A stretch of DNA of 64,000 nt from Hemileia vastatrix (taxonomy: Eukaryota > Basidiomycota > Pucciniomycetes > Pucciniales > Zaghouaniaceae), in contig JASXTE010000001.1 of the NCBI GenBank assembly GCA_030280995.1, positions 348,501 to 412,500 on the forward strand, written 5' to 3'. The notes under the pieces were generated by a model. That model saw nothing but the letters and a program-made list of their open reading frames with translations, did no database searches and had not been told where the DNA came from. A program made the translations under genes and the position numbers. Below, one piece after another: positions 8,026 through 60,992 of the stretch. Each line of letters starts with the position of its first letter. Positions within the stretch are counted from its first letter, which is position 1.

Positions 8026-8071
8026 AAAACAAGTATTACTATATGGATATTTCTATTCTTAATAAGCGCTA
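8026..8071 (-). repeat. Fragment of the left (3') LTR of element B
   Basis: Short piece between chromovirus D and A2. It matches 28816-28860 of the right B LTR. The LTR resumes beyond A2 at 18373. The last six bases, GCGCTA (8066-8071), are duplicated at 18373-18378 as the A2 target-site duplication. Confidence 0.85.
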
Positions 8072-9170: not shown

Positions 9171-9183
9171 TCCTCCCTCCAAT
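9171..9183 (-). other. Polypurine tract of A2
   Basis: Read on the - strand the sequence is CGATTGGAGGGAGGA followed by the LTR start TGTGGTAG. Families B and C have nearly the same tract (19371, 43149, 52987, 32551). Confidence 0.75.
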
Positions 9184-9830: not shown

Positions 9831-9836
9831 AATAAC

Positions 9837-10330
9837 CAGTTTAGAGTCTTAGTGGACAGTGTTAAATTAAAAGATTGAATTGAGTTATCCAAACAAGATT
9901 GACATTCCAATTTAAAGTCTTGGTAGACCAAACATATAATCGATTGCCAGTTTATGGTCTTGGTGGACCAAAGATCGTTTAAGTGCATAAATATCTTGAT
10001 ATATTCTTGAAATTCAGTTTAAAGTCTTGAAGGACTAACAGCTCCAATATAAAATCTTTAATGACTGTCTTGAAAATTAGCCAGTTTAAAGTCTTGGAGG
10101 ACTAACAGCTCCATAATTCGTATAAAACCCTTAAGGAAAGTCTTGAACAGTAGCCAGTTTAAAGTCTTGGAGGACTAACAGATCCAAAATACGTGTATAA
10201 AAAAAACTTTAAAGAACGTCTTGAAAAGTAGCCAGTTTAAAGTCTTGGAGGACTAACAGCTCCAAAATTTGTATAAAACCTTAAAGAAAGTCTTGAACAG
10301 TAGCCAGTTTAAAGTCTTGGTGGACTAACA
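9837..10330. repeat. Array of AGTTTA stem-loop motifs in A2
   Basis: Copies of CAGTTTA-A-AGTC-N6-GACT start at about 9837, 9908, 9948, 10015, 10082, 10155, 10233 and 10305. The last five are spaced 67-78 nt apart and are followed by AACAG. The copy at 9948 has the stem GGTC/GACC in place of AGTC/GACT, so both sides changed together. The intervening sequence is less conserved than the motif. Confidence 0.85.
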
Positions 10331-10439
10331 GATGTCTTGAAGTAAAATCCCATAGGTATTGAATTCCCCTAGACCCTGTTTCCTGTCTAAACTATATGAA
10401 TAAACTAAAAAGAATAGTGACTGGAAAATAAAACTAAGA

Positions 10440-10640
10440 AATATAATAATAATTTTGATTTAATTAATTAATATTTTTTTTATTTTTTTTTTGTTTTTTT
10501 TTATTTTATTTTATTTATTATTTTTTATTTATTTATTTTTTATTATTTATATATATATATTTTTTTTTTTTTTTATTTATTTTTTTTTATTTTTTTTTTT
10601 AATTTAATTTTTTTTTTTTTTTTTTTAAATTTTATTTTAA
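10440..10640. repeat. T-rich simple sequence
   Basis: Runs of T with interspersed A (poly-A in the sense of the element). No reading frame. Confidence 0.9.
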
Positions 10641-10766
10641 TAAAAGATTTTAGAAAAGATAGGTTTGAAATAAAATTTAAAATTTAATTTTAAAGAAAGA
10701 TAAATGAACGTGAAAAGAAAGATAAAAAAAGGTAAAAAGAATTATCAAAATTTAAAATTTAAAAGA

Positions 10767-11230
10767 TGCCCCCTGGCCATTTGATGAGCCGTACCCTCGA
10801 CATCATACCCACATCCAAGTGCAACTTGATGTGGTTACACAATTCAAGAAATTGAAAAGAAAATAAAATAAATGAAATTTTTAGAAGATAATTTTTATAA
10901 TGATGATCACTGGGTGGGCTCCCTCCAATTTATAAAAATGATTAGAGACCACCAGTGAGCATCACCTTTACAATAATTCATAATATATATTAAAGAAAAG
11001 AAATCACAGTCTAACATAAAAAATCAAAAACAAAATAAAAAAAAAACTTGAATCCGGCGTTGAGAGCGGTGTCTCTTGATTCGTTCCAGTTTATAGTCTT
11101 AGTGGACTTCCTAAAATTAAAAGACAAAGCCAGAATTCAACTAGAAACAGGGAAAATTTTGGAAACGAACATTATGGGGTAATTGTGCATAGAGCAGCCA
11201 GCCCATCAATTACCCCCACACTTGCCAATA
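10767..11230 (-). promoter_or_regulatory. Structured 3' modules of A2
   Basis: Four foldable blocks recur in family C. (1) about 10800-10840: CCACATCcAAGT / ACTTGATGTGG. (2) about 10903-10962: TCACTGGGTGG / CCACCAGTGA around CTCCCTCCAAT. (3) an AGTTTA stem-loop at 11087. (4) 11176-11216: GGGGTAATTG / CAATTACCCC with a 21-nt loop containing AGAGCAGCCAGCCC. A fifth stem, AAGAAGGTTC / GAAC-a-CTTCTT, follows at about 11240-11267. The strand on which they act is not known; they lie in the 3' part of the element transcript. Confidence 0.6.
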
Positions 11231-11433
11231 TTAAATTAAGAAGGTTCCCCTGTGAACACTTCTTCCAATAAATTTTAAAATTTTTCCAACACTATCTTCA
11301 CCCATATTTTAAGAATTTTTAATTTTGAAAATTTTCAATGAAGGTTTTCTTGCATTTCGTTATGTTTCATCACAGTTTCGTCGCCCATATGCAGTGTAAT
11401 GATAGTAAAGTATTTTTGATAAAAATAAGAAGA

Positions 11434-11556
11434 TAGTTTATACTCGTTGCGGAGGAATCCATAAAATTTCGTAGATATCATAGTTTATCCTCATTGCGGA
11501 GGAATCCATAAATTTAATAAAAGTCATTAAAATTGTAGTTTATCCTCATTTCGGAG
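11434..11556. promoter_or_regulatory. Stem-loop cluster directly after the pol stop
   Basis: Three AGTTTAT-MCTC-N6-GAGG motifs (11434, 11481, 11536). In the sense of the element the last begins immediately after the pol TAA (11559-11557) as CTC-CGAAAT-GAG followed by GATAAACTA. The same arrangement follows the gag stop at 15898. Confidence 0.65.
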
Positions 11557-14500
11557 TTAGACTTCGGCACTCCTGGTGCCTCTAGGATAGAACCGTTTCA
11601 CTTGATCGGCCGCTACCCTCTTCTTCAATACTACTCCATCCAACTCTTCTAGCACATATGAACCGCCGGAAACTTGCTCCTTGATTTTATACGGTCCATT
11701 CCACCTATCTGCAAACATTTTTCCCCACTGACTTTCCAAACTCCTATTATACACCAAGACCATATCTTCTGGGTTCAAAGGTTTCCTTAATCGATGTGCC
11801 AACCGCTCATCCCAATATCTAACTGATTGATTTCGGATCTTCATCATCCGCGAATATGCCTTTTCTAAATATTCTTCTTTCTTTTCTAGCTGCATCATTC
11901 TTGCACACAATAATTCTTCAGTAGTTTTGACCGTGTCCCAGTCAACTCCAAGATATGATTCAGCTTCTAAATCAACCGGTAAAACTGCTTTCTGTCCAAA
12001 AACAAGTTCATAAGGTGAAAATCCGGTCGTCCTTTTGGCAGTGATTCGATCAGCAAATAAAACTAAAGGTAAATAGTGCCTCCACTTTTCGGCACTCGTC
12101 CCACACATTTTAACTAAAGCATCCTTAATAACTTGATGCCCTCTTTCAACCATGCCTTCAGCTTCAGGATAATATGGGGTTGCTACCCTAACCTTTGATC
12201 CAACTTTCAATACGGCCTCCTTAAACTCTGTCCCGAATTCAGGACCTCCATCTACCGTCACCAACTTCATCACCCCATACCTATATACCCAATTATTCAA
12301 AAAGAATTCTGCCACATTTTTGGCAGTTAAATTAATAAGAGGCGCTGCCTCTACCCAACCAGATAAATCATCTCTGGCCACAATTAAATATTTATACCGT
12401 CCCTCTTTAATATGAACGGCATCTAAACTAACTCTCCCAAAGAGTGTATTTTCACCGGTCGCGCGTCCAGGTTCTTTTGGCCTTAAATAACTTCGTCTTT
12501 GACATTCTTCGCATGACTGAACCCACTGTTTAACAGCCATCTTCATGCCAGGCCACCAAAATCGATCAGAAATTCTTCTAAACGTTTCTCCCATGCCTCT
12601 ATGCCCGAGATCTTCATGCAGTGATTTCAAAACTAATTCTTGCCCCTTCTCTTGAGTTATAACTACTTGAGGATTTGGATACCTCCTCCTCATTAAACGT
12701 CGACCAGATAGGTAAAACGTAGATGACTTCCTCTTGATAGCCACCCATTCATCGTCTTCACAATCTTCTGGCCTCTCTAAAGTCAACAAATATTTGACTA
12801 ACAAAAAATAAAAACCAGTCTGACCCCAGACTTCATCTTGAAAATCTATTAATATAACATCAATAGGGACTTCTCTATCACCAATATCACCTGCACATGA
12901 ATGAGCCAATAATCGTTGACCCCTAAATAAATTTTTAATCGAGCTATGTCGACGTTTTTCTTCTGAACCTTTGGATCCTTCGAAAACCGTATTTGAAAAT
13001 ACCTCTTTCTCTGTATCCACCTTTTTATTTAAATTCTCTAATTCTCCAACATATACACCATTCCTTAATTTACTACTATCCCACACTACCAATCCATCTT
13101 CCTCTACATACACTACATCTTCTTCTACCTCCTCTCTGCCGAATTTATCTACACCTTTTCCAACACCTTTATTAACATAAAAACTATTTTCCAGTTTATC
13201 CTCTTGGTGGAGGTCATCATCATCATAATCTAAACACAATAGTCCTGCCAGTTTAACCTCATGGGGGAGGTATGGAAAGTCTTCAGCTCCTTTAGTGCTG
13301 GCTTTGATAATAGGTATATCTTCATCGAACTCTTCTGAGTCTGAATCTTCTTCAGTGGGTGGTCTCCTTGATAAACCATCTGGCATAGTAAAAGTTTTGC
13401 CAGGCTTATGAACTAAATCAAACGAAAAATGTTGAATAAAAGCTACCCATCTCGTCATGGGTGCGTTCGGTAAACTTGGGGAATTAATCATCTGGATTAA
13501 CGATTTCGCATCCACTTGCAACTCAAAATGTTGCCCCCACAAAATATGCTGAAGTTTCTTCAGTATTTTCTCCACACCACATAATTCCAATTTTGGTTGA
13601 GAATATCTTGATTCGACCTCAGTAAATATTACAGATTCATACCTAACTGGCCTGATGTAACCAGCTTTATCCATCTGAGACAGAACCGCCCCAGCTGCAA
13701 CCTGACTTGAATCAACTGCTAAATAAATTCTACCAGCATCTTTTCCATAATCTAACTTGTGCAGGACTAAATCCTTCCCCACAACCTCCTTCAACTTCAC
13801 AAACGCCTTCTCACACTCTTCATCCCACTCCCAGTCTGCATCCTTTCTCGTTAACCGTCTCAATGGAGCTGCCAATGAAGAAAAGTCCTTGATAAACATT
13901 CTAACATATACGCAAACGCCTAAAAACCCTCTAACTTCGGTCGTATTCTTGGGTCTTGGCCAGGACTGAATTTGGTTAACTTTCTTCTTGGACATAATCC
14001 TACCCTCTCTACATACCACATGGCCTAATATTTCTAAGGCTGGCACACAACATGAAAATTTTGAACCTGAAATAGTTAAACCAGCCTCTTCAATTCGAAA
14101 CAAGATTCTTTCTAAAGTAATTGCAAACTCCCAAATGAATTTGCGTATCCCGGGATTCTCTTCCAACACCTGGTTATCATAGTCGGTTGTTGGTCCCTTA
14201 ATTCCTCCATCATCTATAAAGATTCCAGCATATTGTGGAATTTCATCTTGAAGGATCCAAGCCATCTGAGCTTGATAAACTGCAACCGAATTTGTTGCTC
14301 CTTGAGGTAATCTTGTTAACTGTAAACGTCCAAGTGGCGTATCGAATGTAGTGAGAGGCCTTGAGTCCGGATGTAACTCTCTCTCATCATATCCACCCAT
14401 AATATCTCCCAAACCATAGCACACTCTCCCTGCAAACGCTTCGACAAACTCCTCAGCACTAGGCGGTATCCCAGCATCCTTTATTGTAACCCTATTTAAT

Positions 14501-15840
14501 TCCCTAAGATCATGAACAACTCTAAGCTTGCCATTCGGTTTCTTGATACAAAATACCGGACTAGAATAACTTGACGTTGATTGCTCATACAGTCCAGTGC
14601 GTATCCGTTCTCTGACAACTTCAATATAGGCTTCTTTTAATGCAGCCGGAATAGGAATCGGTTTCTGCTGCCACGGTTCATGACATACCACAGGAATCTT
14701 GTAAGGCTCCCCATAGGAATGCTTCAACACACCCCTCTCCTCTTCTTCAAAAGCAATGGCCTTCTCTCGCTTGACCATCACATCCAACAACAACTTCTTC
14801 TCTTCTCCAGACAACCAACCATAAGGTCCAAAATTAACAACACCCAGTCTCTCAAAAGTGATTCTTGACGTCTCAGAAAATTCAGGCGGATTCTTTACCA
14901 AGGGACTTTCATAAGGATCTCTTGATAACCTTGGTCTTCTCAAGGGTGGATTTAATTCAGCAGGTAGCGGTTCATTAATAGGTCGAACTTTATTTGCTAC
15001 TTTCTTATATTTGGCTGCCTCCACATCTAAATTAACTTGAGGTAAAACATTTTCTTTTGTATCGCCATTAAAACTTTCATCAAATGAATCTTCTTCATCG
15101 CCAGAATTAGAATAAGAAAAATTAGAAAAATATTTTATTTCATTTTTAAATTTTACCCTTTTCTCCTTTCCCTCGTCTAATTTATAAACAGATTTTCCAA
15201 CACCTTTGCTTCCCTTATCCAACAGTAAATCACCCGTAAAGAAAGTTGGCAGTTTACCCTCTTGCTGGAGGACCGGAATTAAATTTTCACAAAAATTATT
15301 TTTTTGAGTTTTAATTATACTGAGATTTTTTATCGTATTTTGATGTGATATTTGCAGTTTACCCTCTTGCTGGAGGTCCGTAATAGAAGGAGATAATTGC
15401 AGTTTAACCTCTTGCTGGAGGCCCCGAATAACATTTTCACATAAGTTATTTTTTTGTGTTTTACTTATACTGAGATTTTTAATCGAGTTTTGATGTAATT
15501 TTTGCAGTTTACCCTCTTGCTGGAGGTCTGAAAACATACCCTTCCAATTTTTATCCAACCTAATTTGGCCCATTTTGCCTTTTTCACCGTTTTTAAATTT
15601 AATAGAAAAACCGGGTAAATCCAATAAACATATAGAAAAGTCCAAAACGTATTTGCACTCCAAAGTAATATTAACAGAAAATAATTGAGAATCCACTTGA
15701 ATTATCCTTAAGTGAGCTGACCTATTGCAATCCGGGATCTCATCCTGAGGAGAGATTACAACATTTGAGCGATCAGCCCCTGCTACCCCAAAAAATGAGG
15801 GCATCCATAATAATTTGAATCCTGAATAAATTGAAGACAT
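11557..15840 (-). CDS. pol: Gypsy pol polyprotein (reverse transcriptase, RNase H, integrase) of A2
   Basis: Open frame of 1427 residues. Reverse transcriptase lies at about 400-600: catalytic Asp at 479 in GLGDIMGG, then FIDD at 541-544 in place of YxDD. RNase H is at about 705-800 (LAVDSS, ELCG, QVDAKS). An acidic spacer of about 250 residues follows. The integrase has an HHCC finger at about 1075-1113, catalytic D1140, D1197 and E1232 (D-x34-E), and a GPYKIKE...GGSYVLEELDG module near 1380. The N-terminal 300 residues are not conserved and carry repeated DLQQEGKLQ segments that arise from stem-loop motifs in the DNA. I find no protease motif. The ATG at 15840 is in the same frame as gag, two stops downstream (TAA, TGA). 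A stem-loop sits in the gap. It copies element RNA into DNA and inserts it. Confidence 0.95.
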   Translation of the reverse strand: MSSIYSGFKLLWMPSFFGVAGADRSNVVISPQDEIPDCNRSAHLRIIQVDSQLFSVNITLECKYVLDFSICLLDLPGFSIKFKNGEKGKMGQIRLDKNWKGMFSDLQQEGKLQKLHQNSIKNLSISKTQKNNLCENVIRGLQQEVKLQLSPSITDLQQEGKLQISHQNTIKNLSIIKTQKNNFCENLIPVLQQEGKLPTFFTGDLLLDKGSKGVGKSVYKLDEGKEKRVKFKNEIKYFSNFSYSNSGDEEDSFDESFNGDTKENVLPQVNLDVEAAKYKKVANKVRPINEPLPAELNPPLRRPRLSRDPYESPLVKNPPEFSETSRITFERLGVVNFGPYGWLSGEEKKLLLDVMVKREKAIAFEEEERGVLKHSYGEPYKIPVVCHEPWQQKPIPIPAALKEAYIEVVRERIRTGLYEQSTSSYSSPVFCIKKPNGKLRVVHDLRELNRVTIKDAGIPPSAEEFVEAFAGRVCYGLGDIMGGYDERELHPDSRPLTTFDTPLGRLQLTRLPQGATNSVAVYQAQMAWILQDEIPQYAGIFIDDGGIKGPTTDYDNQVLEENPGIRKFIWEFAITLERILFRIEEAGLTISGSKFSCCVPALEILGHVVCREGRIMSKKKVNQIQSWPRPKNTTEVRGFLGVCVYVRMFIKDFSSLAAPLRRLTRKDADWEWDEECEKAFVKLKEVVGKDLVLHKLDYGKDAGRIYLAVDSSQVAAGAVLSQMDKAGYIRPVRYESVIFTEVESRYSQPKLELCGVEKILKKLQHILWGQHFELQVDAKSLIQMINSPSLPNAPMTRWVAFIQHFSFDLVHKPGKTFTMPDGLSRRPPTEEDSDSEEFDEDIPIIKASTKGAEDFPYLPHEVKLAGLLCLDYDDDDLHQEDKLENSFYVNKGVGKGVDKFGREEVEEDVVYVEEDGLVVWDSSKLRNGVYVGELENLNKKVDTEKEVFSNTVFEGSKGSEEKRRHSSIKNLFRGQRLLAHSCAGDIGDREVPIDVILIDFQDEVWGQTGFYFLLVKYLLTLERPEDCEDDEWVAIKRKSSTFYLSGRRLMRRRYPNPQVVITQEKGQELVLKSLHEDLGHRGMGETFRRISDRFWWPGMKMAVKQWVQSCEECQRRSYLRPKEPGRATGENTLFGRVSLDAVHIKEGRYKYLIVARDDLSGWVEAAPLINLTAKNVAEFFLNNWVYRYGVMKLVTVDGGPEFGTEFKEAVLKVGSKVRVATPYYPEAEGMVERGHQVIKDALVKMCGTSAEKWRHYLPLVLFADRITAKRTTGFSPYELVFGQKAVLPVDLEAESYLGVDWDTVKTTEELLCARMMQLEKKEEYLEKAYSRMMKIRNQSVRYWDERLAHRLRKPLNPEDMVLVYNRSLESQWGKMFADRWNGPYKIKEQVSGGSYVLEELDGVVLKKRVAADQVKRFYPRGTRSAEV

Positions 15841-15872
15841 AACAATAAAAAAAAAATTTCAGCCGAGTTTAG

Positions 15873-15897
15873 GTAGTTTATCCTCATTTCGGAGGAA
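15873..15897. promoter_or_regulatory. Stem-loop at the gag-pol junction of A2
   Basis: In the sense of the element the gag stop TAA is followed by TTCCTC-CGAAAT-GAGGATAAACTA, then an in-frame TGA and the pol ATG. The stem-loop lies between stop and restart, where signals for readthrough or reinitiation would be expected; this role is inferred. Confidence 0.5.
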
Positions 15898-17097
15898 TTA
15901 AATTCTTGATATCCCCTGGAGATAATCCATAATTTTGCCCCAAGGGCTTTTCCACCGATTCCATAAAACCCAAAAATAAATTCCCAGAATTTGTCCTATA
16001 AAAGGACATAAAAAATAAACTACCTTTTTCCAAAATATGAGTGCATCCACTTTATGCACCCTATTGTCCAATGGCACTACACTCTCTATTAGTGCAGGAA
16101 AAACCATATCCTCCATAAAAATCTCTTCCTGAGATTGAAACAAATCCACCATACATATACCAGATTCATAAACCATATCCACATCTGAATTGCAGACAGT
16201 CTCCGCTTTTGAAGACAAAACCTGAGGTAAATATTCCTCTAAATCAAATTCCAAATTATCCAAAACAAAATTATCGCCAACATCCAAATTTTCTTCATCA
16301 GTGACAATAATATCTTCATCTTCAGAAACCTCTTCTTTCCAAACAGAAGAGTCAACAAAAATAATATCTTCAGACTGGAAAAAATCTTCAGGAATGGCTG
16401 AATCCGGAATTTCATCAGTAACTAGTTCTTTTACACCATCCTCTTCTATCTCTTGAGTGACCAAAGTGTCTTCTCCAGAGTCCAAATCAACAGAGTTATG
16501 AGTATCCAGATGTTCCAAAATAACCTTCTTTAGCACCTCCATACCAGGAATCCTAGTTTCTCCATCTGGGAGATCCTTCATTAAATTCGCATTAATAAGC
16601 ACCATCAAAACATCTTTCTTAACCTTTTCCCCCATAGCATCCCAAAAAACATACTTTGATGCATTATCATGAAATAAAATTTCATACTCCAACAAATAAT
16701 CCAGAACCACCTGAAATTCAACCATAAACTGATGATACTGATGCAGAGATGTTACACCACCTTTTGATTCCCATTTCCTAGCTATATCCTTTAGATCCTC
16801 CAATGAATAAACTTTTGGCCACCTTTTTTCCATTTCCATCTTGAGCTTTCTCCAATCTTGATCTTTATAACCATCCATAGAAATAACCTCCTTTTCCACC
16901 TCTCTGTCCAAAATAAAGAACCTAATCTGCTTCACCATATCCAAAGGTAAAGCACCATCAATCGCAGCAGCAGCTTCATACCTGCTAATGAACCATTTAA
17001 CCTCCTCCCCATCAAACTTTGGGCCATCCCAAGAAACAATTCTAACTGAGGGAGTAAGAGGGTTAGAAGATCCAGAAGCAACAGCAGAAGAAGACAT
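15898..17097 (-). CDS. gag: Gag capsid protein of A2
   Basis: 399 residues from the ATG at 17097; the upstream part of the open frame has no ATG, and A1 is out of frame there. Residues about 25-180 match family C gag (62424-63413): FDGEEVKWFISRYE, LDMVKQIRFFI, a W-rich stretch with EKRWPKV, and GGVTSLHQYHQF. This is the retrotransposon gag fold that builds the particle. The C-terminal half is strongly acidic and lacks the CCHC knuckle seen in C. The last 45 residues include a hydrophobic stretch of about 24 residues (VVYFLCPFIGQILGIYFWVL) resembling a membrane segment. It is followed by pol in the same frame after stops. Confidence 0.85.
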   Translation of the reverse strand: MSSSAVASGSSNPLTPSVRIVSWDGPKFDGEEVKWFISRYEAAAAIDGALPLDMVKQIRFFILDREVEKEVISMDGYKDQDWRKLKMEMEKRWPKVYSLEDLKDIARKWESKGGVTSLHQYHQFMVEFQVVLDYLLEYEILFHDNASKYVFWDAMGEKVKKDVLMVLINANLMKDLPDGETRIPGMEVLKKVILEHLDTHNSVDLDSGEDTLVTQEIEEDGVKELVTDEIPDSAIPEDFFQSEDIIFVDSSVWKEEVSEDEDIIVTDEENLDVGDNFVLDNLEFDLEEYLPQVLSSKAETVCNSDVDMVYESGICMVDLFQSQEEIFMEDMVFPALIESVVPLDNRVHKVDALIFWKKVVYFLCPFIGQILGIYFWVLWNRWKSPWGKIMDYLQGISRI

Positions 17098-17138
17098 CCC
17101 AATACATAAGAAAAGCGTTAACAACTGTTAAAATAACA

Positions 17139-17202
17139 AGCCTCTTGCAGGCCAATAACAAAAATCCAATTAGAGTTCCAGAGAATAAGCCTCTTGCAGG
17201 CT
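17139..17202 (-). promoter_or_regulatory. Twin leader hairpins of A2
   Basis: AGCCT-CTTGC-AGGCC (17139-17153) and AGCCT-CTTGC-AGGCT (17188-17202) lie between gag and the primer-binding site. A1 has the same pair. Position and duplication resemble packaging or dimerisation hairpins; inferred. Confidence 0.5.
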
Positions 17203-17253
17203 AAGAAAGTCCTAGATCCAAGTAAGTCCTAGAAAAAGCTAGAGATTTCGAAC

Positions 17254-17270
17254 CCCACGTTGGGCGCCAA
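17254..17270 (-). other. Primer-binding site of A2
   Basis: CCCCACGTTGGGCGCCA on the + strand, four nucleotides from the LTR. Together with the preceding TTCGAA it reads like the 3' end of a tRNA: T-loop TTCGAAC, 5-nt stem CCCAC, 7-nt acceptor GTTGGGC, G, CCA. Family C has the same site at 63463-63479. The tRNA species is not identified. Confidence 0.8.
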
Positions 17271-17274
17271 CTAT

Positions 17275-18372
17275 GGTAAGGTAAACTCTTACAGTCGCCT
17301 TGCTGTAAGCAGAATCCGGAGGAGATATGTGGATTTAGCTGAAAACCCCGTCCTTCCAATAAAAATATCAAAGTAGGTGTTCTAAATCACTAAGCTAACC
17401 AATCTACTTAGATCTGATTGATAAAAATAATGAAACTCTAAAATAATTAACGCTTATTGAGATTAAATGATTGTGGCTGTTGATAAAGAAATACTGATAA
17501 CAACAATTAAGGTGTACCAGTGAAAGATCTGAAAGATTGACTTTTATGTTTTTATAATAATTTGAATTTTTATGAGACAGCAATAATCAAGTCCCAGCGA
17601 TGAAGACCTTTCTAAAGATACCCTGTATGAAGTGTTATTTAAACTGTTGAATTGTATTTCTAAAATGTTATGTAAAAATAATAATGTTATAAGGGTATTA
17701 CAAGTTATTTTAATTTGTTGAGTAATAAAAAATGAGACTGTGGTAGTTAATGATTAAGCTGTATGATGTGTCCCCCCTCTCAATTTCGAGTTTGAGAAGC
17801 GCTTAAGTATTCCTAGTCACGTGCCTAAGTTTTCCCCTCCAGAGCTCTTCCAGAGTCAATCCGGAGCCCGTACGGAGTCGAAAGGGAGTCCGTCCGGACT
17901 TCCGGACTCAATTTAGAACCTTAAAACCATAATAAAAAATCTAGAAAAATTACACATAATAGAGCTACTTCCCCTTTACCTACCAAACTAATTTTCGTAG
18001 TCTGCGCAGCTCTAATTACCCCGTGATAATTCATCAAAGTTAAGTAATTTTTGAAAACGTAAATATTCCTATAAAACTTTAAAATTCATTAAAAAATATA
18101 AGAAAAATAGTAAAAAATTCTGGGAAAATTTCCCAAGGTTCTTGAGTGACTCGACTTAATACTTATAAACTTTTCAGACCGTAAAAAATAAGTTTTCTCC
18201 GTAAAATAAATTGTTTTCGTGTAGGCATTTGCTCGTGACCAATTTCTTCATATTTAAAACTCCAATAAATTAAATAAAACCCTTTTATAAAAAAAATAAT
18301 AACGCCAATCTTGCACGCCGTAATAACTCCATTTACAAATTTAGGTGCCGTACTAAACTTTAGGCTACCACA
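17275..18372 (-). repeat. 5' LTR of A2
   Basis: 1098 bp, TGGTAAGG...GCTACCACA on the + strand, near-identical to 8072-9170. It drives the leftward gag-pol transcript. Confidence 0.95.
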
Positions 18373-19370
18373 GCGCTAATATCCACAGCTACTCCCTCTT
18401 GAAGCACTCTCTTTGAATATGCCTTATTATAGCAATAAAACAACTCTAATAATAGTCAATCCTACTAAATCTATATATTCCCTCTATGATGCGCTCTTTC
18501 ACTTATGCTATATGAAATACACACACAGACGCACGAATGATAAAAGACTCAGAAGTATCTCTAATTTACTATTCTATATCTCTCTATATATTCTACTTAC
18601 AAAAAGACTCCCTATCTTTATCAAATAGTCCTCCTTTTTATATTTTTCCAGTACTCAAGACACAGTTCCCTAGTGGATATCCAGCACTGGCTCTAGCGCC
18701 ACATTATTAAAACAATAAATAATCTATTAGTAAACTATGTACACTGCTTGTGACAACTACGGCACCTAAAACATACCCTATGATTACTAATGCTAGTATT
18801 AACTTGTTTCACTCATACTCCACATATGCGCTTTTGACTATACCTTCGTTTTTGTTTCAGTGCTATTTTCAGGTTTGACCCATTCTAACATTGATCCTAG
18901 TCGCCTTGACTCTTGGGTAGTCTCCTGATTGAGTCCCCACTTTACTTTCTTTAATAATAAGTTCATAGTCCTAACAATTCACTTAACTAGTTAGCCTCCC
19001 TTTTTACCTGTTTCAGTAAGTTACCCAACTATCCGCAGTACAGTATACTATGCACTTGAGTCGTCCTTAAGCCATAAATCTTTCTTTAATGCGTAACAAA
19101 TAATTATTGGAAAGTCCAAATCCATATTGTTTAGCGCTTTACAGTCCTAAATCAATAACACACAATTCCCCATTGTGCGGCACATCTTGTTGCAATATCC
19201 GAGCGCACAGACCCTCAATCCTTTTCTGCGCTTCCATTTCCTTTGTTCTTTGAAACACACAAATACATATTATATTTTAGCACTACCTACTGCTCTAACT
19301 TCCTTTGTTCTTCCTGGACTTCGCGCGCTGATTGGTCTAGAATTATGCTACCTGCAAGGCGTGTACCACA
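18373..19370 (-). repeat. Left (3') LTR of element B, main part
   Basis: Matches the right B LTR (28861-29312 plus 30435-30979) with roughly 95 percent identity by eye, so B is much older than A2. It ends in GTACCACA, followed by the polypurine tract complement TCCTCCCTCT. Its missing start lies at 8026-8071 and beyond element D. Confidence 0.9.
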
Positions 19371-19503: not shown

Positions 19504-20450
19504 ATGAACACCAGAAGAGCTAATCCTAACACTGAAAATACTGCCAACGTCATGGACACAATTCGACAGTTCATGCGCCCTCAGCCCCCTGCTGCTCCAA
19601 CAACAATGCCCATAACTAGACTGATGGGTGGGACAAGATGCACCTGCTGCATCAAAAATGGCATAACTCCTTGTCATTTCTCAAAAGCCCGCTGTGGCAA
19701 TAATTTCTTCACTGTAAGTTATCTTCACTTTCCTTCCTTGTTGTTACTAACCTTTCATTTCTTTTCCCCTTTTTTTTTTTTTTAGTCATGTGATTACTGC
19801 AAGAAACGCAAAAAGAAGTGTATTTACGATGGGCCACCCACCGTTGCACGCCTGGACTCTAACACTTCAACCACTAATATGATGAGTCAAATGACCATCA
19901 GGCACCTGGCGCCTGCTTCTGTTACCCCACCTGGCAACAAACGGGCCAAGGTTGGTTACTGCAAATCTACACCCAGTAGTGTCGCTTCTGTCCCAAGATC
20001 TCTCTTTTCAGAGGAGACTACCGTAAGTCTTCCTTTTCTAATGCTAAAATTCTCTCTTTTTTTTCTTTTTTTTTTTTTTAGAATGAGCCAGGAACACCTT
20101 ACGCTGAAAGGCCTTCGCCTCCTAACATTCCTCTATTCCTTCAAGCCTTGGAAGAAGATCCTGTCTGGGATACCGAGTCTATTCCGGAGTGTACTCCTCG
20201 AATACCCATCTCTTACTGGACAACTATGCAGCCGGTCTTTGATACCATCATCCCAGACGAATGGCCCATTGAAACATTTCCGGACGTCGATGATGAAGAG
20301 CCCGCCATGGCTCAAAACAGGGAATTTGCAGAGAAAATTGCCTGCGCTCCATACAATGCAACCATGCGTTGTATGAACAACATGTTAACTGCTGTCGAAG
20401 AATTCCTTGAGCCGGTCCTGGTTTATACTCGCGCTGAGTATAACAAATGA
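19504..20450 (+). CDS. Antisense zinc-cluster protein 1 of element B (three exons, intact)
   Basis: Exons 19504-19713, 19786-20022 and 20082-20450 give 271 residues. Intron 1 (72 nt) has GTAAGT, a TTACTAAC branch site and a T-tract before TAG; intron 2 (59 nt) has GTAAGT and T-tract-AG. The phase is conserved across both joins. Residues 46-82 form a Zn2Cys6-like cluster: C46-x2-C49-x7-C57, a 14-residue linker, then C72-x2-C75-x6-C82 with the basic loop CDYCKKRKKKC. The cluster is split by intron 1. The C-terminal half is Pro-rich then acidic (QALEEDPVWD, DEWPIETFPDVDDEEP). Zn2Cys6 proteins are fungal DNA-binding regulators; a nuclear role is inferred. It lies antisense to the dead pol of B. 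A pyrimidine-rich tract precedes the ATG. Confidence 0.8.
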
Positions 20451-20984
20451 AAACAGCTAATAACCACCTTGCAACAAAACATGCAAGAGGCTGTTAACAA
20501 CTGGGCTTTCTGCATTCCAATCTTTGACGACGCAGAATACTAAAAATCTTCCTTGTATATATTCCCTGTAAATTGTATATTACCTTGTAAAAAAAAAAAA
20601 CTGTAATATTTTTTATTTATTTTCCCTTAATTTTCTTGTGAGAATTCTACAACTGCAAGATGAGTTGCCTTCAAAAAAAAATCCTTTTTCTAAGCAGCAC
20701 ACCCTTGTACTAAGTGCTTATGAATGATGAAACAACAAAAAATAGCAACTTGAGATTGTTGCTACTTTCTATAGCAGAAAAAACTTCCCCTGCATTGTAT
20801 ATGCATGTTCTCTCTTGTAATCTTCAGATCTTCGCAAAATATGACTTTCCCTTGACTGCGACAGATTTGCCTTTCTTTGGGTAATTCATTATGAAATTTT
20901 TTTTCACTATCTTCTTATAAACCATCCAGCGCTCAAGTCAGACATGGCACAACTGATGACTCCTCTATGATGCCATTGTTATCT
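20451..20984. other. Spacer between the two antisense genes of B
   Basis: AT-rich. Likely contains the 3' end of gene 1 (A-rich and TTTTTATTTATTTT tracts near 20590-20630) and the promoter of gene 2. No other gene seen. Confidence 0.5.
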
Positions 20985-20992
20985 TATAAATA
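20985..20992 (+). promoter_or_regulatory. TATA box of antisense gene 2 of B
   Basis: TATAAATA lies 39 nt before the ATG at 21031, on the gene strand. It suggests gene 2 has its own promoter inside the retrotransposon. Confidence 0.5.
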
Positions 20993-21030
20993 GCCTTTTT
21001 CATAACCTAGATCACTTTCATCCAAATATT

Positions 21031-21827
21031 ATGACTCAATATTGTACGGTTCCCAAAGATCAAGCGTGCTTGTTTTGCAAACACCGCAACTTTCATTGTA
21101 CATTTTCTAAACCTTGGGGGTATGCCTCCTTTAGACCTGCCTGTGACAATTGCTTCAGATACCACAAAACTTGCAATATCTCTTTTAACCAGAATACTCC
21201 TCAGCCTACTGGTTATATTTGCTTTCCACCTAGATCTACTAGTAGCGCTCCCATAATTACAACAACTAGTCCCACTATTTCTACTAATAATAATGTTCCT
21301 TATGAATCACCATCGCTTCCTAGTTTTCCCAGGCGTGAAATATCTATTCAGCCTAGTGCTACACCTTCTTCCACTCCGAGCTCTAATGGTTCTATGCGCT
21401 CAGGCTCCATTGCAGCTTCTCCTGACGCAGTTACCATTACTTTTACATCAGCAAACCCACAAAACTTATTAGCAAGTAAGTATCCTTTATTATACTTACA
21501 CTCTCCTTTCCCACTGACTCCTTGTCAGGCTTCAATGAATCCATCTTTCTGGGATGGGTTCATATTCCTTTACCCTTTGTCCATTCCATGAAAATGTTTT
21601 CCAGACTTCGTCTTATATATGACGCTATGTCTCTATCCTATTCTAACACACCAGCTTTTTCTGACGCTGAACTTGAAGCTTGCTATACCCATATAGAAAT
21701 GATAGATCAACTAATGAACAAAATCAGCTCATCAACTATTCTTGAATTCCCAACCGATCCCTGTTGCTTTGTCATGCCTGAAGACTGGAAAGGATATCCG
21801 ATTAGCTTTCACCCTGATAACAAATAG
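21031..21827 (+). CDS. Antisense zinc-cluster protein 2 of element B (two exons, intact)
   Basis: Exons 21031-21475 and 21529-21827 give 247 residues; the 53-nt intron has GTAAGT, a CACTGAC branch region and GTCAG, and splicing keeps the frame. Residues 13-48 are a full Zn2Cys6 pattern: C13-x2-C16-x6-C23, 14 residues, C38-x2-C41-x6-C48. A Ser/Thr/Pro-rich linker follows, then a C-terminal helical region (MFSRLRLIYDAMSLSY, DAELEACYTHIEMIDQLMNK). The start PKDQAC and the cluster align with gene 2 of family C (54417: PKDYAC), so the two are relatives at the same position and orientation. A DNA-binding role is inferred; the target is unknown. Confidence 0.8.
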
Positions 21828-22460: not shown

Positions 22461-25400
22461 TTAAAGGTATTTTTCTGGTAGTTTTTCATCATTCAGGAGG
22501 TTATCTTGTATCACTGGAACACCCCTTGGGTAGAATATTTTGATCTGATCTCCAGCCACACGTTGCTTCCACTCAGTACCATCCAATTCCTCCAGTAAAC
22601 AAGACGCTCCAGTTATCTTCTTTCTTATCTTATATGGACCATTCCATCTGTCAGAAAACATCTTACCCAATTAGCTTTCTAAACTTCTATTATAAACCAA
22701 AAACGAATCTCCCGGGTTCAATGGCTTTCTTATCCTATGCGTTAAGCGCTCATCTCAATATTTAACTGACTTGTCCTGGATCTGCATCATTCTTTCATAC
22801 ACCTTCTCCACAAACTCGTCTTTCCTTTCAAGCTGCGCTACCCTCACTAGAATTAAATCATCAGTTGAGCGCACTTGATCCCAGTCACATCCTAGAAAAG
22901 ATCCAGCCTGCAGATCAATAGGTAATACCTCCCTTTGACCATAAATCAGTACATACGTTGAAAAACCTGTTTTTCTTTTAACTGAAATCCTGTCCACAAA
23001 CAAAACTAATGGCAAGTAGTTCTTCCACTTCGCCCCATTATTTCCACATAGTTTAACTAGCGCATCCTTAATAACTTGATCATCTCTTTCTACCATTCCC
23101 TCTGATTCAGGATAATATGGTGTTGCAACTTGTAACTTTGCGCCAATACCTTTTACTACCTCTTAAAATTCTCCAGCAAATTCAGTGCCACCATCTACAG
23201 TTACCATCTTCATTACTCCATACCTGTAAATCCGTTCTTTCTTCAAAAATTCAGCTACATTACTTGCCTTGAAATTTACCAATGGTGCTGCTTCAACCCA
23301 TCCTGATAGATCATCCCTGGCTACTACCAAGTATTTAAAGCGTCCTTCTTTTATATGAACTGCATCTAAACTGACCCTACCAGAAACAGTATCTTCGACC
23401 GTCGCTCTACCTTTCTCTTTTGGCTTTCTGTAACTCCTGCGCTGATATTCAGGACAAGTTTTAACCCAATCTCTTACTTCATTTTTCATATTGGGCCACC
23501 AGAATGTTTCCCTAACTCTGCGATATGTCTCATCTTGACCTCTATGTCCTAAATTCTCATGTAACTTCCTGAGTATCTTCTCCTTCCTTTCCCTAGTTTG
23601 AAAAAGTAACTGAAGAGACAAAGTTCTATTCTTCCATAACTTCCAATTTTTAATAAAATAACCTTTAGCGCGCTTCTCAATATTACGCCAAACCTTTTTA
23701 TTGCAATAATTTGGTTGACTATTACCTTCCATAAATAACCTTAACAACTCTACTCCCTCATCAATAGATGTGCCGTCTTCAGAATACTCCCCTTCTTTGA
23801 GATGAGTACTACTGTCTTGACTTCCCCTTGAATCATCTTCATCATCTGACTCTTCCACTACCTCGCCTTGCGCACTCCTTGTAGCTACTTTAGCTTCAGT
23901 GTCCCCTAAATCCAGTTGCAGACTACCCTTGCTACAAACATCCTTTGCATTGTCAATATCTAGTTTTATGTCTTTACGGACATTCCACGTTACTAGTTTA
24001 TTGTCATCACAGACAATACTGCCTGATAGTTTATTATCATTGCAGACGATACGGTCTACTAGTTTACTGTCAAATCTTTCATAACAATTATCTATCCCAT
24101 TTACCCATTTCTTATCTTCTTCAAATTCTTCCACTTCTGAGTCTTCTTCACAAAACGGTCTTCTGACAATGAATCCGGCATAAAGAACAATTTTCCCGGT
24201 TAATGGACTAAATCGAAATAAAACAAATTAATCTACGCTACCCACCTCGTCATGGGCGCATCTGGTAAACTTGGCCTACTAATCATTTGCACCAACGATA
24301 GCCCATCAACATGCAGCTCAAAATGCTGCCCCCAAAGCATCCATTGTGGCTTCTTAAGAATTTTTGCTACTCCACATAACTCCAGCTTGGACTGAGAGTA
24401 CCTGGACTCCACTTTGGAAAAAGTCTTAGACTCATAACGGACAGGTTTATCATTACCTTCCTCATCCTCCTGCATCAAAACTGCTCCCACTGCAGACACA
24501 CTAGAATCTACCGCTAGAGTAATTTTCCCAGCGCCTGGTCCATACTCCAATTTTTTCAAAAGAATATCTTTCCCTACAATCCTTTTCAATAACTCAAATG
24601 ACTCCTTGCATTCCTTGGTCCAATCCCATACAACATCTTTTCTTGTTAAGAGCCATAAAGGTGAAGACAACAAAGCAAAATCTCAAATAAACATTCTTAC
24701 ATATGTACAGATTCCTAAAAACCCTCTAACTTCCTCAGTATTTCTTGGTCTCGGCCACGTAAGCACCTTATTCCTCTGTTGTTCAGCAATGATTCTCCCT
24801 TCCTTGCATACCACATGTCCCACTATCTCTAGTGCTGGAGCACAACAAGCAAATTTGGACCCAGAAATCATTAATCCTGCCTCCTCTATCCTAAATAGCA
24901 CCCTTTCCAAAGTAATCACATATTCCCAAAAAAACCTTCTAATATACAGATTCTCTTCTAACACTTCCCCATCATAATCACTGGCTGGTCCTTTTATATA
25001 GCCATCATCGATGAAAATTACCACATGTTCTGGAATTTCATCCTGCAATATCCACATCATCTGTGCTTGATATACCACCACAGAATTTGTTGCGCCTTGC
25101 GGTAACCTTGTCAACCTGAAGCGCCCCAGTGGTGTTTCAAAGGTTGTCATGGGTCTGGATGATTCGTCCAATTTGCGCTCATTGTATCCTCCCATAATAT
25201 CACCTAATCCATAACATGCACATCCTGCAAAAGAATCCACAAACTCCTCTGGCATTGGTGGCATCCCTGCATCCTTTACTGTAACCTTGTTCATCTCCCT
25301 AAGATCATGAACAACCCTTAATTTACCATTATGTTTAACAACACAAAACACTGGACTTGAATAACTAGACATAGACTGTTCATACAAGCCAGACTTTAAC

Positions 25401-26260
25401 CTTCCCCAAATTAATTCCGTATACTCTTCTCTTATAGCTGCTGGTATTGGAAAAGCCTTCTTCTGCCACAGAACATGAGATATAACTGGAACAATATAAG
25501 GTTTACCATAAGAGTGTTTCAACAAACCTCTTTCCTTTTCTGAAAACGCAATAAAATTTTCTCTAAGAGCCATAACATGCAACAACAACTCCTTTTCTTC
25601 CTACAATAACCAATCCTCTGGTCCAAAATTTACCATCTGAAGCCTTTCCATTGTAATCTTACTAGTAGGCGCAAAATCAGGCGGAAACCTTTTTAAAGGG
25701 GTATCATAAGGATTCCTAGACAGCGCCGGCCTCTGCAAAGGAGCATTCAAATCAGGCATCGCTACATTCACTGGTTTAAACTTAACAGCTACTGGTTTAT
25801 ACTTTGATGCAAAACAGCTCTTGCTGCTTCATTCATTAATTAAAATAAAACCCTTTCTAATATAACTACGGGTTGCACCTAAATCCTGTTTTAGTCTTTT
25901 CTTTTTCATATAAGTATAAAAATACCCATAATCAAAGAAATTAAAAAGCTTAGGTATAATACATTCTACAGTAGTATTCTCAAGACACCTATGAAGTACC
26001 TCTTTACGTATCCCTTCTTGTTGGCATGACTGGTCACTATCTGGGTTCCTCTCATCCTGGGAGATAATAACACCTAAAATGCCAGTCCCTAATGAAAATG
26101 TTGGCTCCTTCCTGGCGGTCGCCCTATCTAGTCATCTGAGACTTCCTCATAAAATTCTCTTTCTTTCTCTAACCGCGCAGCACCAGAGTACTTAGTTTCC
26201 CAGCCACCATCCTTGGGCACTACTAAGACTACTGTTACTGGAACACCATCATCATCCATA
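22461..26260 (-). pseudogene. pol: Degraded pol of element B
   Basis: The order and motifs match A2 pol. Reverse transcriptase lies at 25588-24683 (GLGDIMGGYNE, VIFIDDGYIKG), RNase H at 24673-24233 (LAVDSS, ELCG, HVDGLS), an acidic spacer and HHCC finger with DDE integrase at 24134-22755 (SLDAVHI, VTVDGGTEF, EGMVERD), and the GPYKI module at about 22640. In-frame stops occur after CTYVRMFI, after MTRWVA, after TEFAGEF, after DKSVKY (TGA where A2 has Trp) and after NRSLES. The stretch 25589-26260 is the decayed N-terminal part. Mostly point changes rather than frameshifts. Confidence 0.9.
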
Positions 26261-26264
26261 ATCC

Positions 26265-28349
26265 TTATTCCAATAGTCTTATCAAACAATAATCTATAGT
26301 TGTAGAATAATCCATTAAAAATGGTGTGCCTAAAACTGGTTTAACTACACCCATTGGAACATAAAAATGTATATCCCTCGTTGCTCCCGCAACTCTAGTG
26401 GGTACATACTCTGCTACACCTATAACAGGTAACCTACCTCCACCAATTCCTGCAACAGTACCCTCACCATCTTTAACAGGAAGACCTAACTCCACTGCAT
26501 CATCCACTGACACCACGTTGATTTGTGAGCCTGTATCCACTAACGCTTCAATTTTCTTACCATTTACAGTAATTGTTAAATACCCTAAGGGTCCTGCATA
26601 ATGTGGCCCCCTAGGTATTCCAACAACAGGCTGAAATGACTGCTGTTCAACATCAAACTCAGTGACATTAGCAATCCTTTGCTTCCTAAACTTATCCACA
26701 ATTCCATTCACTACATCTGGCGCTACTGCTGTCAGCATCCCCAATGGAACGGAAACTGTAGTTCTCAAACATTGCACAACTAAATCCTCAGCTGCTTTAC
26801 GAAAATCAGAGTGAACCGGGAACTGCATTCTCAATTTAGTTTGAGTTGCCTTCGCACAAGCTTTCGCTCTTCCAGGTAGGTTCTTTGGAGTATTGTGCCT
26901 TGCTCCTGGCATTTGTTCAGCAGGTACCACTCTTTGCTGTACTACCTCTGACTCCTCCAACATTGCCGTTTGATCTTCTATCTGGTGATTCACACTATAA
27001 CCTCCTGGTTCCATACCATCCATTTCAACATCCTTGATTGGCGCAGGTGTATTTTCTCTTGTAGTATACCCTACTTCCTCCATATCCTCTGGATTTGCAT
27101 ACCTAGCACTAGTCCTTCTTGGCCTAGTAACTGTAGGTGGGGCAATTTTCTTGTGCTTTGCTGCAAACATCTCCAAACACACTGCTGTAAGTGGTTCTGC
27201 AACTGCTCCCTCTTTTACTTCAAAATCCAGCACTGCGCAAGTAACTGCAAAATTGACTGACTTGGCATCCTTGCCTTTCTCTTTAATTTCAGGCTCTTTG
27301 CCCTTGTTTTACCTGCCTTCCATAGACTTTCTATTAATATGATCGATAACCATGGCTTGCATCCCTCAATCCTTGTCTTTAACAAGCTTAGTGCCGTCTT
27401 CCAACATAAGTGTAGTCCCGTCCTTGTAAACTACCTTTTCCTCTTTATCCCTTTGAAGCGCATTACACCTCATCCTAGTATGCTCCTCTTTATTAAAATA
27501 ATAGCACATCATAGCAGAAAAATGCAAAGGTTGAGGAGAACTATTGGGCCTAAACAACTCTTTAGCCTTTCCCGCTTCAATTATCTTTTTCTCCAACTCA
27601 TCAATCCTTGCCATAACTGCATCTGGCTCCTTAGTAAAAACTTTAACTTTATGAGACGACATCTGAGGAGGCGATTGTACGCCAGACGCATCTTCATTCA
27701 TCTCCTCATTATCCAAAGCAACCCTAGCTACACGACGCTCAACTCGACGCAAATTCATTTCAGCTTCCACTTCCATTTCTAATTCTTCTAATCCAGGGTA
27801 CTTATAATTTCCGTCCGTTTTTCTAACCAGCTTTCCTTTGTTATCCAAGCACCTTTTTGCCCAGTCTTCAACTTCTGGCACTAACGCTTCACAAAAAGAA
27901 GTTAAAGACCCATTAGCATCACTAAAATCGTCATTACTAACTAAATATTCCACTATTTGGTCAAAGTCTTCCCTAAAACTTTTAAATTCCTTAGGGTCTC
28001 GAATACCTCCTTTAGCTTTGACCCTTTTTACCAAAATATCCAGGTCCTTCATGGTATACCTAGTTTCCTCGGTAACCTTTGGCCATCTCTTGAGCATCTG
28101 TTCTTTTAGCGCTGGTCAATCTCGCTCTTCATTCCCTTTTAGATCCTCTAAATCGTCTTTGCACTCATTATTTACAAAGAATAGTACTTGATACACCATA
28201 TTGTATTCAGTTGCTCCATGAACTTCAGCTGCCTGTTTAAACCTGCATAAAAACTTCTTGGTATTAATGCCCGCAAAAAGAAAGCTTTCATCTTTACACC
28301 TAATGATTGTAGTTAATGTCTTTGGCAACGATGCCAAAGAATTGGGCAA
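26265..28349 (-). pseudogene. gag: Degraded gag-protease of element B
   Basis: Gag lies at 28349-27366 and is broken by a TGA at the position of a conserved Trp in A2 gag, then by a TGA and a TAA near 27365-27310. A knuckle-like sequence, CYYFNKEEHTRMRC, has lost its second Cys (Phe). The protease lies at about 26600-26265 with ALVDTGSQINVVS (catalytic DTG kept), a GIGG loop and GTPFLMDY. Retroviral-type aspartic proteases cut the polyprotein. Family A lacks this segment. Confidence 0.85.
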
Positions 28350-28619: not shown

Positions 28620-28636
28620 CCACTGTTGGGTCACCA
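28620..28636 (-). other. Primer-binding site of element B
   Basis: CCACTGTTGGGTCACCA on the + strand, ending in CCA and lying four nucleotides from the LTR. It differs from the site of A and C, so either another tRNA is used or the site has drifted. Confidence 0.65.
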
Positions 28637-28640
28637 ATTA

Positions 28641-29312
28641 TAGGCTGTTCTAAAGTACAAAGCAGTAGAGACAATGCTAGATGGGTTGGTTTTCATCTTC
28701 AATTTCTAAAAAGAAGCGCCTGCCACTCTTATTTTTAAAGACAGCGCAATAATGTGTAACACTAATATTTGATTAGAAAATTTATAAGTTGAGAGATGAG
28801 TTTTAGAGATCAGGAAAAACAAGTATTAATATCTGGATATTCCTATTCTTAATAAGTGCTAATATCCACAGCTACTCCCTTTTGAAGCACTCTCTTCTAA
28901 TATGCCTTATTATAGCAATAAAATAACTCTAATAATAGTAAATCCTACTAAATCTATATATTCCCTCTATGTTGCGCTCTTTCACTTATGCTATATGAAA
29001 TACACACACAGAGGCACAAATGATAAAAGACTCAGAAATATCTCTTATTTACTATGCTATATCTCTCTATATATTCTACTTACTAAAAGACTCCCTATCT
29101 TTATCAAATAGTCCTCCTTTTTATATTTTTCCAGTACTCAAGACACAGTTCCCTAGTGGATCTCCAGCGCTGGCTCTAGAGCCACATTAGTAAAATAATA
29201 ACAAATCTATTAGTAAGCTACGTACACTTCTTGTAACAACTACAGCGCCTAAAACATACCCTATGATTACTAACACTAGTATTAACTTGTTTCACTCACA
29301 CTCCACATACGT
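28641..29312 (-). repeat. Right (5') LTR of element B, first part
   Basis: Starts TAGGCTGTTC (TG mutated to TA, by analogy with the 4-nt spacing in A and C). Contains the empty site for A2 at about 28854-28864. Interrupted by the solo A LTR at 29313. Confidence 0.8.
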
Positions 29313-30434
29313 TGTGGTAGCCTAAAGTTTAGTATGGCACCTAAGTACGTAAATGGAGTTATTACGGCGTGCAAGATTGGTGTTATTATTTTTTATAAAA
29401 GGGTTTTATTTAATTTATTTGAGTTTTAAATATGAAGAAATTGGTCAAGAGCAAATGCCTACGCGAAAACAATTTATTTTATGGAGAAAACTTATTTTTA
29501 CAGTCTGAAGAATTTTTAAGTATCAAGTAGAGTCACTCAAGAACCTTTGGAAATTTTCCTAGAATTTTTACTATTTTTCTTATATTTTTAAATGAATTTT
29601 AAAGTTTTATAGAAATATTTACGTTTTTAGAAATTACTTAACTTTGATAAATTTTCACGGGGTGATTAGAGCTGCGCAGACTACGGAAATTTATTTGTAA
29701 TGCAAAGGGGAAGTGGCTCTATTATGTGTAATTTTTCTAAATTTTTTATTATAGTTTTAAAGGTTCTAATTGAGTCCTCTTGGACTCTGCTTGGACTCTG
29801 TTTGGACTCCGTACGGACTCCGCTTTGACTCCGTACGGGCTCCGGATTGACTCTGGCTGAGCTCTGGAGGGGAAACTTAGGCACGTGACTAGGTATACTT
29901 AAGAGTCTCTCAGACTTGAAATTGAGAGGGGGGATAGATCATACAGCTTAATCTTTAACCACCACTGTCTCATTTTTTATTACTCAACAAATTAAATAAA
30001 TTGTAATACCCTTATAACTTCATATTTTATATATAACATTCTAGAAAACTACTCAAAAATTTAAAATCACACTTCAATCAGGATATCTTTAGAAAGGTCT
30101 TCATCACTGGGACTTGATTATTTCTGTCTCATAAAAATTCAAATTATTATAAAAACATAAAAGTCAATCTTTTCAGATCTTTCACTGGTACACCTTAATT
30201 GTTGTAATCAGTATTTCTTTCTCAACAGCCACTTTTATTTAAATCTCAATAAGCGTTAAATATTTTAGAGTTTCATTATTTTTTTATCAATCAGATCCAA
30301 GTAGACTGGTTAGCTTAGTGATTTAGAATTCCTATTTTGTTGTTTTTATTGGAAGGACGAGGTTTTCAGCTAAATCCACACATCTCCTCCGGATTCTGCT
30401 TACAGCAAGGCGACTGTAAGAGTTTACCTTACCA
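29313..30434 (+). repeat. Solo LTR of family A
   Basis: 1122 bp from TGTGGTAG to CCTTACCA, opposite in orientation to A2. It sits in the right LTR of B; the left B LTR (about 18820-18835) is uninterrupted at this point. Flanks TACGT and TAATG(T) are a decayed duplication. A TATAAAA box lies at 29394. It carries the longest GGACTC/GGAGTC array (about 29775-29860). It was formed by recombination between LTRs of a full element. Confidence 0.92.
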
Positions 30435-30979
30435 TAATGTGTTTTTGACTATACCTTTGTTATGTTTCAGCGCTACTTTCAGCTTTGACCCATTCTAATG
30501 CTGATCCTAGTTGCCTTGACTCTTGGGTAGTTTTGTGATTGAGTCCTCACTCTCTTTTCTTTAATACTAAGTTCATAGTTCTGACAATTCACTTAACTAG
30601 TTAGCCTCCCTTATTACCTGTTTCAGTAAGTTACCCAACTAGCCACAGTACAGTATACTATACACTTGAGTTGTCCTTAAGCTGTAACTCTTTACTTAAT
30701 GCGTAACAAATCATTATTGGAAAGTCAAAATCCATATTGTTTAGCGCTTTACAGTCCTAAATCAATAACACACAATTCCCCATTGTGTGGCACATCTTGC
30801 TGCAAAATCCAAGCACACAGACCCTCAATCCTTTTCTGCGCTTCCATTTCTTTGTTCTTTGAAACACACAAATACATATTATATTTTAGCACTACCTACT
30901 GCGCTAACTTCCTTTGTTCTTCCTGGACTAGGCGCGCTGATTGGTCTAAAATTATGCTACCTGCCAGGCGCGTACCACA
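30435..30979 (-). repeat. Right (5') LTR of element B, second part
   Basis: Matches 18830-19370 and ends in GTACCACA. Immediately beyond it the sequence is an LTR of family C in + orientation, so B is inserted in that LTR. Confidence 0.88.
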
Positions 30980-31850: not shown

Positions 31851-31899
31851 TTTATTTTATTTCTAAGTCATGAATTTCAGGAAAGAATCAATTAAATTA

Positions 31900-60990: not shown

Positions 60991-60992
60991 TA

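Follow-up and report, generated by a model that had tools for sequence, protein, structure and literature searches.

An intron-containing antisense gene pair in a decayed Ty3/Gypsy element

The window, by which we mean the whole stretch of 64,000 nucleotides that was analysed (positions 348,501 to 412,500 of contig JASXTE010000001.1 in the 747.6 Mb, 791-contig Hemileia vastatrix assembly GCA_030280995.1), contains on its - strand a Ty3/Gypsy element, element B, which carries two intron-containing genes, g1 and g2, in antisense orientation between its pol and its 3' LTR (Table 1). The coordinates, the lengths of 271 and 247 aa, the canonical GT-AG introns and the location of these + strand genes inside a - strand element, as given in the first-pass annotation, were all confirmed. 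The reverse transcriptase (RT) and the integrase zinc-binding domain of element B score above the Pfam cut-off, and its integrase core (rve) gives a Pfam match below it. B pol is dead: tblastn with the polyprotein of element A located seven stops in two alignable stretches that lie in different frames, which bears out for pol, the part that this count covers, the earlier description of a dead gag-pol with stops. The LTRs of B differ by 7.9% K2P (0.0785; 45 transitions and 29 transversions over 998 sites) and not by about 5% as first estimated, and the element is larger than had been implied: the nested element A splits its 3' LTR, and a solo LTR interrupts the 5' one. The 3' LTR ends in ..TACCACA and is followed by a pyrimidine tract, the would-be PPT on the opposite strand. 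Element A has LTRs that are 99.5% alike, an open pol frame of 1433 codons and a gag-like frame of 409 codons.

Table 1. Positions of the elements and genes discussed, counted from the first nucleotide of the window
Feature	Position	Strand	Remarks
B 3' LTR, remnant	8025-8071	-	47 bp, beyond nested element A; family copies align here again
Element A	8069-18372		nested in B 3' LTR; younger than B
B 3' LTR, main part	18372-19370	-	family copies align up to 18372
B g1	19504-20450	+	exons 19504-19713, 19786-20022, 20082-20450; introns 19714-19785, 20023-20081, both GT-AG; 271 aa in the window copy
B g2	21031-21827	+	exons 21031-21475, 21529-21827; intron 21476-21528, GT-AG; 247 aa
B gag-pol remains	22518-28115	-	stops and frame changes
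B integrase	about 22518-24227	-	
B RT	24683-25600	-	
B gag-like ORF	27366-28115	-	
B 5' LTR	28634-30979	-	28634-29309 and 30437-30979, interrupted by a solo LTR
Solo LTR inside B 5' LTR	29310-30436		
Decayed relative of D g1	31898-32515	-	inverted fragment, 52% identity, several stops
Apparent solo LTR	38442-39527		related to C and D LTRs (78-80% identity)
Element C	42055-51616	-	older sister of D
C g1	43197-43835		antisense pair with C g2; has stops
C g2	44474-46037		antisense pair with C g1; has stops
Element D	51894-64000	-	young; extends past the window end
D g1	53035-53675	+	exons 53035-53365, 53416-53675
D g2	54417-55987	+	exons 54417-55502 (one frame break in the window copy), 55572-55987

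Both B genes had been described as intact, which holds for g2 alone: it is open and free of lesions, whereas the window copy of g1 is truncated. The g1 stop at 20448-20450 is premature, since the same codon is a stop in five of 30 family copies and a sense codon in the other 25, part of which carry other stops in the 30-codon tail that leads to the family stop (20541-20543, kept in 28 of 30 copies). Across copies the g1 introns range from 45 to 86 bp and both finish in long T-runs; 27 of the 30 copies have a g2 intron of 53 bp.

The pair belongs to a high-copy family whose copies decay after insertion

Genome searches with B g1 and B g2 returned 1156 and 1251 first-look candidates, respectively, 40 of which were scored in each case, and the antisense pair is thus a feature of a high-copy Ty3/Gypsy family and no local oddity. 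We studied the best 30 of the 40 scored g1 matches (L001-L030). Of these loci, which were chosen via one gene of the pair, 28 carry g2 in collinear order with g1, and GT-AG borders are kept in 25, 25 and 27 copies for the first and second g1 introns and the g2 intron. Of the 12 copies retrieved for pol, 10 have it where its distance from the pair predicts (identity 0.83-0.93); identity is 0.46 in the remaining two. That the window copy had acquired the genes as cargo is refuted by their presence in many copies and in diverged families. Locus L043 holds a 5.8S rRNA copy (positions 1501-1655, - strand of the locus) in an AT-rich setting, the sole match among 39 scored candidates.

An open g2 inside a dead element could be taken to mean that the host has kept or domesticated the antisense genes and that the window copy owes its intactness to a host function. 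However, g1 of the same copy is broken, and g2 is also intact elsewhere, in seven of the 30 B copies with the window copy included, so that an open g2 is not the exception it had appeared to be (g1, read in the family frame, is intact in three of 30). Moreover, the density of premature stops, tallied by hand, is of a similar order in all three genes. Per 100 codons it amounts to 0.64 for the 30 copies of g1 and 0.26 for 28 copies of g2 (excluding L011 and L025), against 0.34 and 0.51 for two segments of pol (11 of 13 copies, excluding L036 and L040). In addition, the genes occur in numerous near-equal copies instead of at one preserved locus. Retention for the host, one of the options raised in the first-pass annotation, is therefore very improbable. 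With such similar stop densities, there is no sign that individual B copies are protected, and after insertion they undergo neutral-looking decay. Equal decay of the antisense genes and gag-pol, which the first-pass annotation had named as grounds for refuting selection, is roughly what individual copies show, but it is compatible with selection during replication.

Within the B family the selection signal is weak. When N/S ratios of changes shared by three or more copies were compared with those of singletons, we obtained p = 0.11 for g1 and p = 0.045 for g2 (30 copies each), and p = 0.26 and p = 0.85 for the polRT and polIN segments (13 copies). This site-frequency test took in the badly aligned copies L011 and L025 (g2) and L036 and L040 (pol) and for this reason bears no conclusion alone.

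Sister elements C and D share the layout, family A has no detected pair

Elements C and D have the same layout as B: g1 is proximal to the LTR and g2 distal, both are antisense, and each contains an intron. In B, C and D alike the pair sits in the interval from pol to the 3' LTR and runs antisense to gag-pol, which is the position of an aORF-3R. Element D is young (LTR K2P 0.012, 515 sites), and its g2 is homologous to that of B over the cysteine cluster (37.5% identity over 56 columns, E 2e-6). As g1 and g2 have a common cluster pattern, the comparison suggests that they arose by an old duplication. A genome search with residues 1-143 of D g2 returned 10,899 first-look candidates; the best 150 were scored and are 91-100% identical, and 137 of them are stop-free over the 143-residue stretch, a list that represents the best-scoring end and is biased to good copies. 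Among 20 C/D loci, again chosen via one gene of the pair, g1 is collinear with g2 in 18.

The pol of family A is nearer to that of D than B pol is, with RT identities of 81% (A-D), 74% (A-B) and 70% (B-D) over 150 columns and integrase identities of 81%, 64% and 63% over 208 columns. Nevertheless, a search of the 3' region of element A for a relative of g1 or g2 found none, and two matched parts of this region lie less than 500 bp apart in at least 20 of the 40 scored family A copies, leaving no room for the pair. Family A has probably lost the pair, or else B and D exchanged it. Since family A moved recently without the pair, the latter is dispensable, or at least not needed in cis.

Between the window C and D elements dS is about 0.4 in g2, 0.19 in g1, 0.10-0.24 across the segments of PR, RT and integrase and 0.40 in the gag-end segment, and in g1 the C-type copy L063 resembles the D-type (0.938). 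The excess of dS in g2 and the g1 of L063 look as if elements had recombined.

Protein-level purifying selection between the C-type and D-type subfamilies

We aligned six D-type loci, taken from the D g2 search, and 14 C-type loci, the window D and C among them, over both genes, with about 32 bases around the frame break of D g2 excluded and with L060 and L061, which have no alignment there, dropped from the g1 test. These loci are the best-scoring copies, with decay below average; mean identity is 0.935 within the D-type, 0.897 within the C-type and 0.846 between them. Differences between the subfamilies were taken to date from the active phase and private changes to be mostly post-insertion. 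Between the subfamilies g2 shows 70 nonsynonymous and 93 synonymous differences and no stop, compared to 333 nonsynonymous, 120 synonymous and 38 stop changes that are private (Fisher p = 8e-12 for N/S and p = 2e-5 for stops). The corresponding values for g1 are 17/19/0 versus 131/51/11 (N/S/stop; p = 0.006 for N/S), the absence of stops between subfamilies not being significant here (p = 0.22). A stricter test on near-fixed differences in the 20 copies gave 49/57/0 versus 222/59/29 for g2 (p = 1e-9) and 1/2/0 versus 165/41/15 for g1 (p = 0.11), where the sites are too few. Thus, g1 agrees with g2 on purifying selection, though more weakly.

Frame controls placed the effect in the annotated frame for all three g2 segments (p = 9e-6, 4e-4 and 2e-5) and for g1 exon 1 (p = 0.006); g1 exon 2 alone, whose true frame is + shift 1, gave no significant difference (6:6:0 versus 46:23:3, p = 0.33). 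N/S was also low in the mirror frame on the - strand (shift 2) of the three g2 segments (p = 0.0095, 6e-5 and 3e-4), as expected because its third codon positions coincide with those of the annotated frame. None of the remaining frames had a low-N/S effect, the three with nominal p < 0.05 deviating in the opposite direction.

These controls bear on the alternative that the antisense RNA is what matters, through dsRNA or silencing control, with the proteins incidental. A review indeed reports proposals that antisense transcripts of LTR elements are regulators (PMC7264820), but selection acts here on the annotated protein frames, with an excess of silent changes and no stops between subfamilies, and third positions account for 34/52, 37/77 and 24/34 of the majority differences in the g2 segments. 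We therefore regard an RNA-only function as improbable. Chance open reading frames were considered as well and rejected.

In pairwise comparison of the window C and D elements, dN/dS is 0.22 and 0.28 for two parts of g2 and 0.56 for g1, and lies between 0.30 and 0.82 in seven gag-pol segments. The antisense genes are as well conserved as the other proteins of the element, as is the case for an aORF-3R. Retention by selection for the element family, which the first-pass annotation had offered as one possibility, is accordingly supported, mainly by the comparison of C-type and D-type copies, and the selection appears to act on the replicating lineage and not on the window copy.

A six-cysteine cluster with seemingly swapped halves

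The g1 and g2 proteins have a six-cysteine cluster close to the N-terminus; a low-complexity linker comes next, and then a C-terminal segment. The cysteines are arranged in two CxxC-x6-C halves, as in Zn2Cys6 proteins (B g1 has x7 in its first half), with the patterns C-x2-C-x7-C-x14-C-x2-C-x6-C in B g1, C-x2-C-x6-C-x14-C-x2-C-x6-C in B g2, C-x2-C-x6-C-x15-C-x2-C-x6-C in D g2 and C-x2-C-x6-C-x13-C-x2-C-x6-C in D-type g1 (locus L046; the window D g1 is without the first cysteine). In B g1 the cluster is divided between exons 1 and 2; in B g2 it occupies residues 13-48, and among 28 B copies (excluding L011 and L025), 25-28 conserve its cysteines.

Zn_clus (PF00172) is the sole Pfam family listed for the whole B g1 and g2 proteins, with 14.1 and 12.2 bits, and cluster fragments reach at best 19.2 bits, all below the Pfam gathering score of 21. 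The earlier designation as Zn2Cys6-like therefore stands as to the six cysteines in two halves, but the HMM search stayed under the gathering score, and formal Zn2Cys6 membership was rejected. Positions 1-17 of the Zn_clus profile represent the canonical first, basic half. When five first and five second halves were scanned separately, two of the ten fragments matched Zn_clus, both of them second halves: the basic second halves of B g1 and D g2 align to positions 1-17 (E 0.0013 and 0.005), and the other eight gave no Zn_clus match. Conversely, when B g2 was scanned whole, its highest-scoring stretch placed the first half on positions 19-35, again in a weak match. The basic half thus comes second in g1 and g2, where the canonical cluster has it first, and on the basis of these partial matches, all weak, the order of the two halves appears swapped with respect to canonical Zn2Cys6.

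AlphaFold2 run on the cluster alignment was uninformative (pLDDT 44.5), a single-sequence search of the PDB gave unrelated matches, and a profile search gave chance-level matches, the best of which (AlcR, E 1.1) pairs the cluster halves in swapped order over two weak stretches. A protein search at E 1e-3, which does not address taxonomic breadth, found no match among 185 (B g2), 308 (B g1) and 444 (D-type g2 exon) word-sharing candidates.

The non-canonical cluster, the uninformative fold prediction and the chance-level PDB sequence matches leave room for the proteins to work elsewhere in the element's cycle instead of as DNA-binding regulators, for instance by importing cDNA into the nucleus, by selecting integration sites or as RNA-binding chaperones. 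On the other hand, the basic CxxC-KK-C half is the part that matches Zn_clus positions 1-17 in the two fragments, and we judge such a function unlikely, albeit well worth keeping in mind.

Element-encoded accessory genes with a proposed regulatory role

Taken together, we consider it likely (with a probability of roughly 0.7) that g1 and g2 are element-encoded accessory genes of a Ty3/Gypsy lineage, for which we propose a role as regulators. The lineage keeps a tandem pair of small genes, in antisense, between pol and the 3' LTR. According to this proposal, transcription of g1 would start from an antisense promoter that most likely lies in the 3' LTR, because only 133 bp in B, and 48 bp in D (from the LTR end at 52986), separate the LTR from the g1 ATG; g2 may be transcribed from the intergenic stretch. 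The introns would pass through reverse transcription because they are reverse-complemented, and hence unspliced, in the sense genomic RNA. The proteins are predicted to act as nuclear DNA-binding regulators of the element's own LTRs or chromatin, and this role is the least certain part of the proposal. A more specific version is doubtful, if still a possibility to be entertained: that the pair forms a two-protein transcriptional self-regulator, driven from the 3' LTR, with an HBZ-like layout of independent origin and a swapped Zn2Cys6 cluster, which helped the elements to reach thousands of copies in a giant genome.

Among Gal4-type Zn2Cys6 regulators (PF00172) we find the same two CxxC-x6/7-C halves, one of them basic, followed by a proline/serine-rich linker. 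The g1 and g2 proteins differ from them in having the basic half second, 13-15 residues between the halves and scores under the Pfam cut-off. HBZ of HTLV-1 is a spliced nuclear regulator and a bZIP protein. Its antisense promoter is located within the 3' LTR (PMC7264820, for HTLV), as proposed for g1; unlike HBZ, g1 and g2 gave no Pfam match to a bZIP domain up to E 10.

Plant Retand and Botrytis Boty elements have antisense additional ORFs (aORFs), of which the pair is a fungal variant with two intron-containing genes. In Retand (PMC11963269, PMC7264820), aORFs with the same place and orientation and a suggested DNA-binding regulatory role are present in most copies; according to a 2025 survey, 97% of clusters have an antisense TRP28 protein for which DNA binding is predicted (PMC11963269). 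Other aORFs are described in sunflower (PMC11728184), and a review states that the function of plant Gypsy antisense aORFs is not known (PMC7264820). The Hemileia pair differs from Retand in its fungal host, its two genes with introns, its six-cysteine zinc cluster and the lack of TRP28 (PF04195, no match up to E 10 in the Pfam scan). Boty-like elements of Botrytis cinerea provide a fungal LTR retrotransposon with an antisense gene, brtn, downstream of pol (PMC7264820, PMC8365987, PMC4227169); unlike here, a single gene is described in these passages, and brtn, which two Botrytis papers mention without a domain (PMC8365987, PMC4227169), was compared by description only. In the main text of a rust transposon survey the terms antisense, zinc, additional ORF and open reading frame are absent (PMC12210899), and among the titles and abstract openings listed from the open-licence literature none reports zinc-cluster genes lying antisense in a Gypsy element of a fungus.

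Paired, intron-containing zinc-cluster genes under measurable protein-level selection allow a direct test of whether antisense regulators are encoded by LTR elements themselves, and where a large fungal genome shows zinc-cluster genes with introns, these may belong to transposons instead of being host regulators. A further likeness to Retand concerns tandem repeats, which occur in the same region in about half of the Retand elements (PMC11963269): element D has short ones there, as detected by TRF, and element B has one weak repeat.
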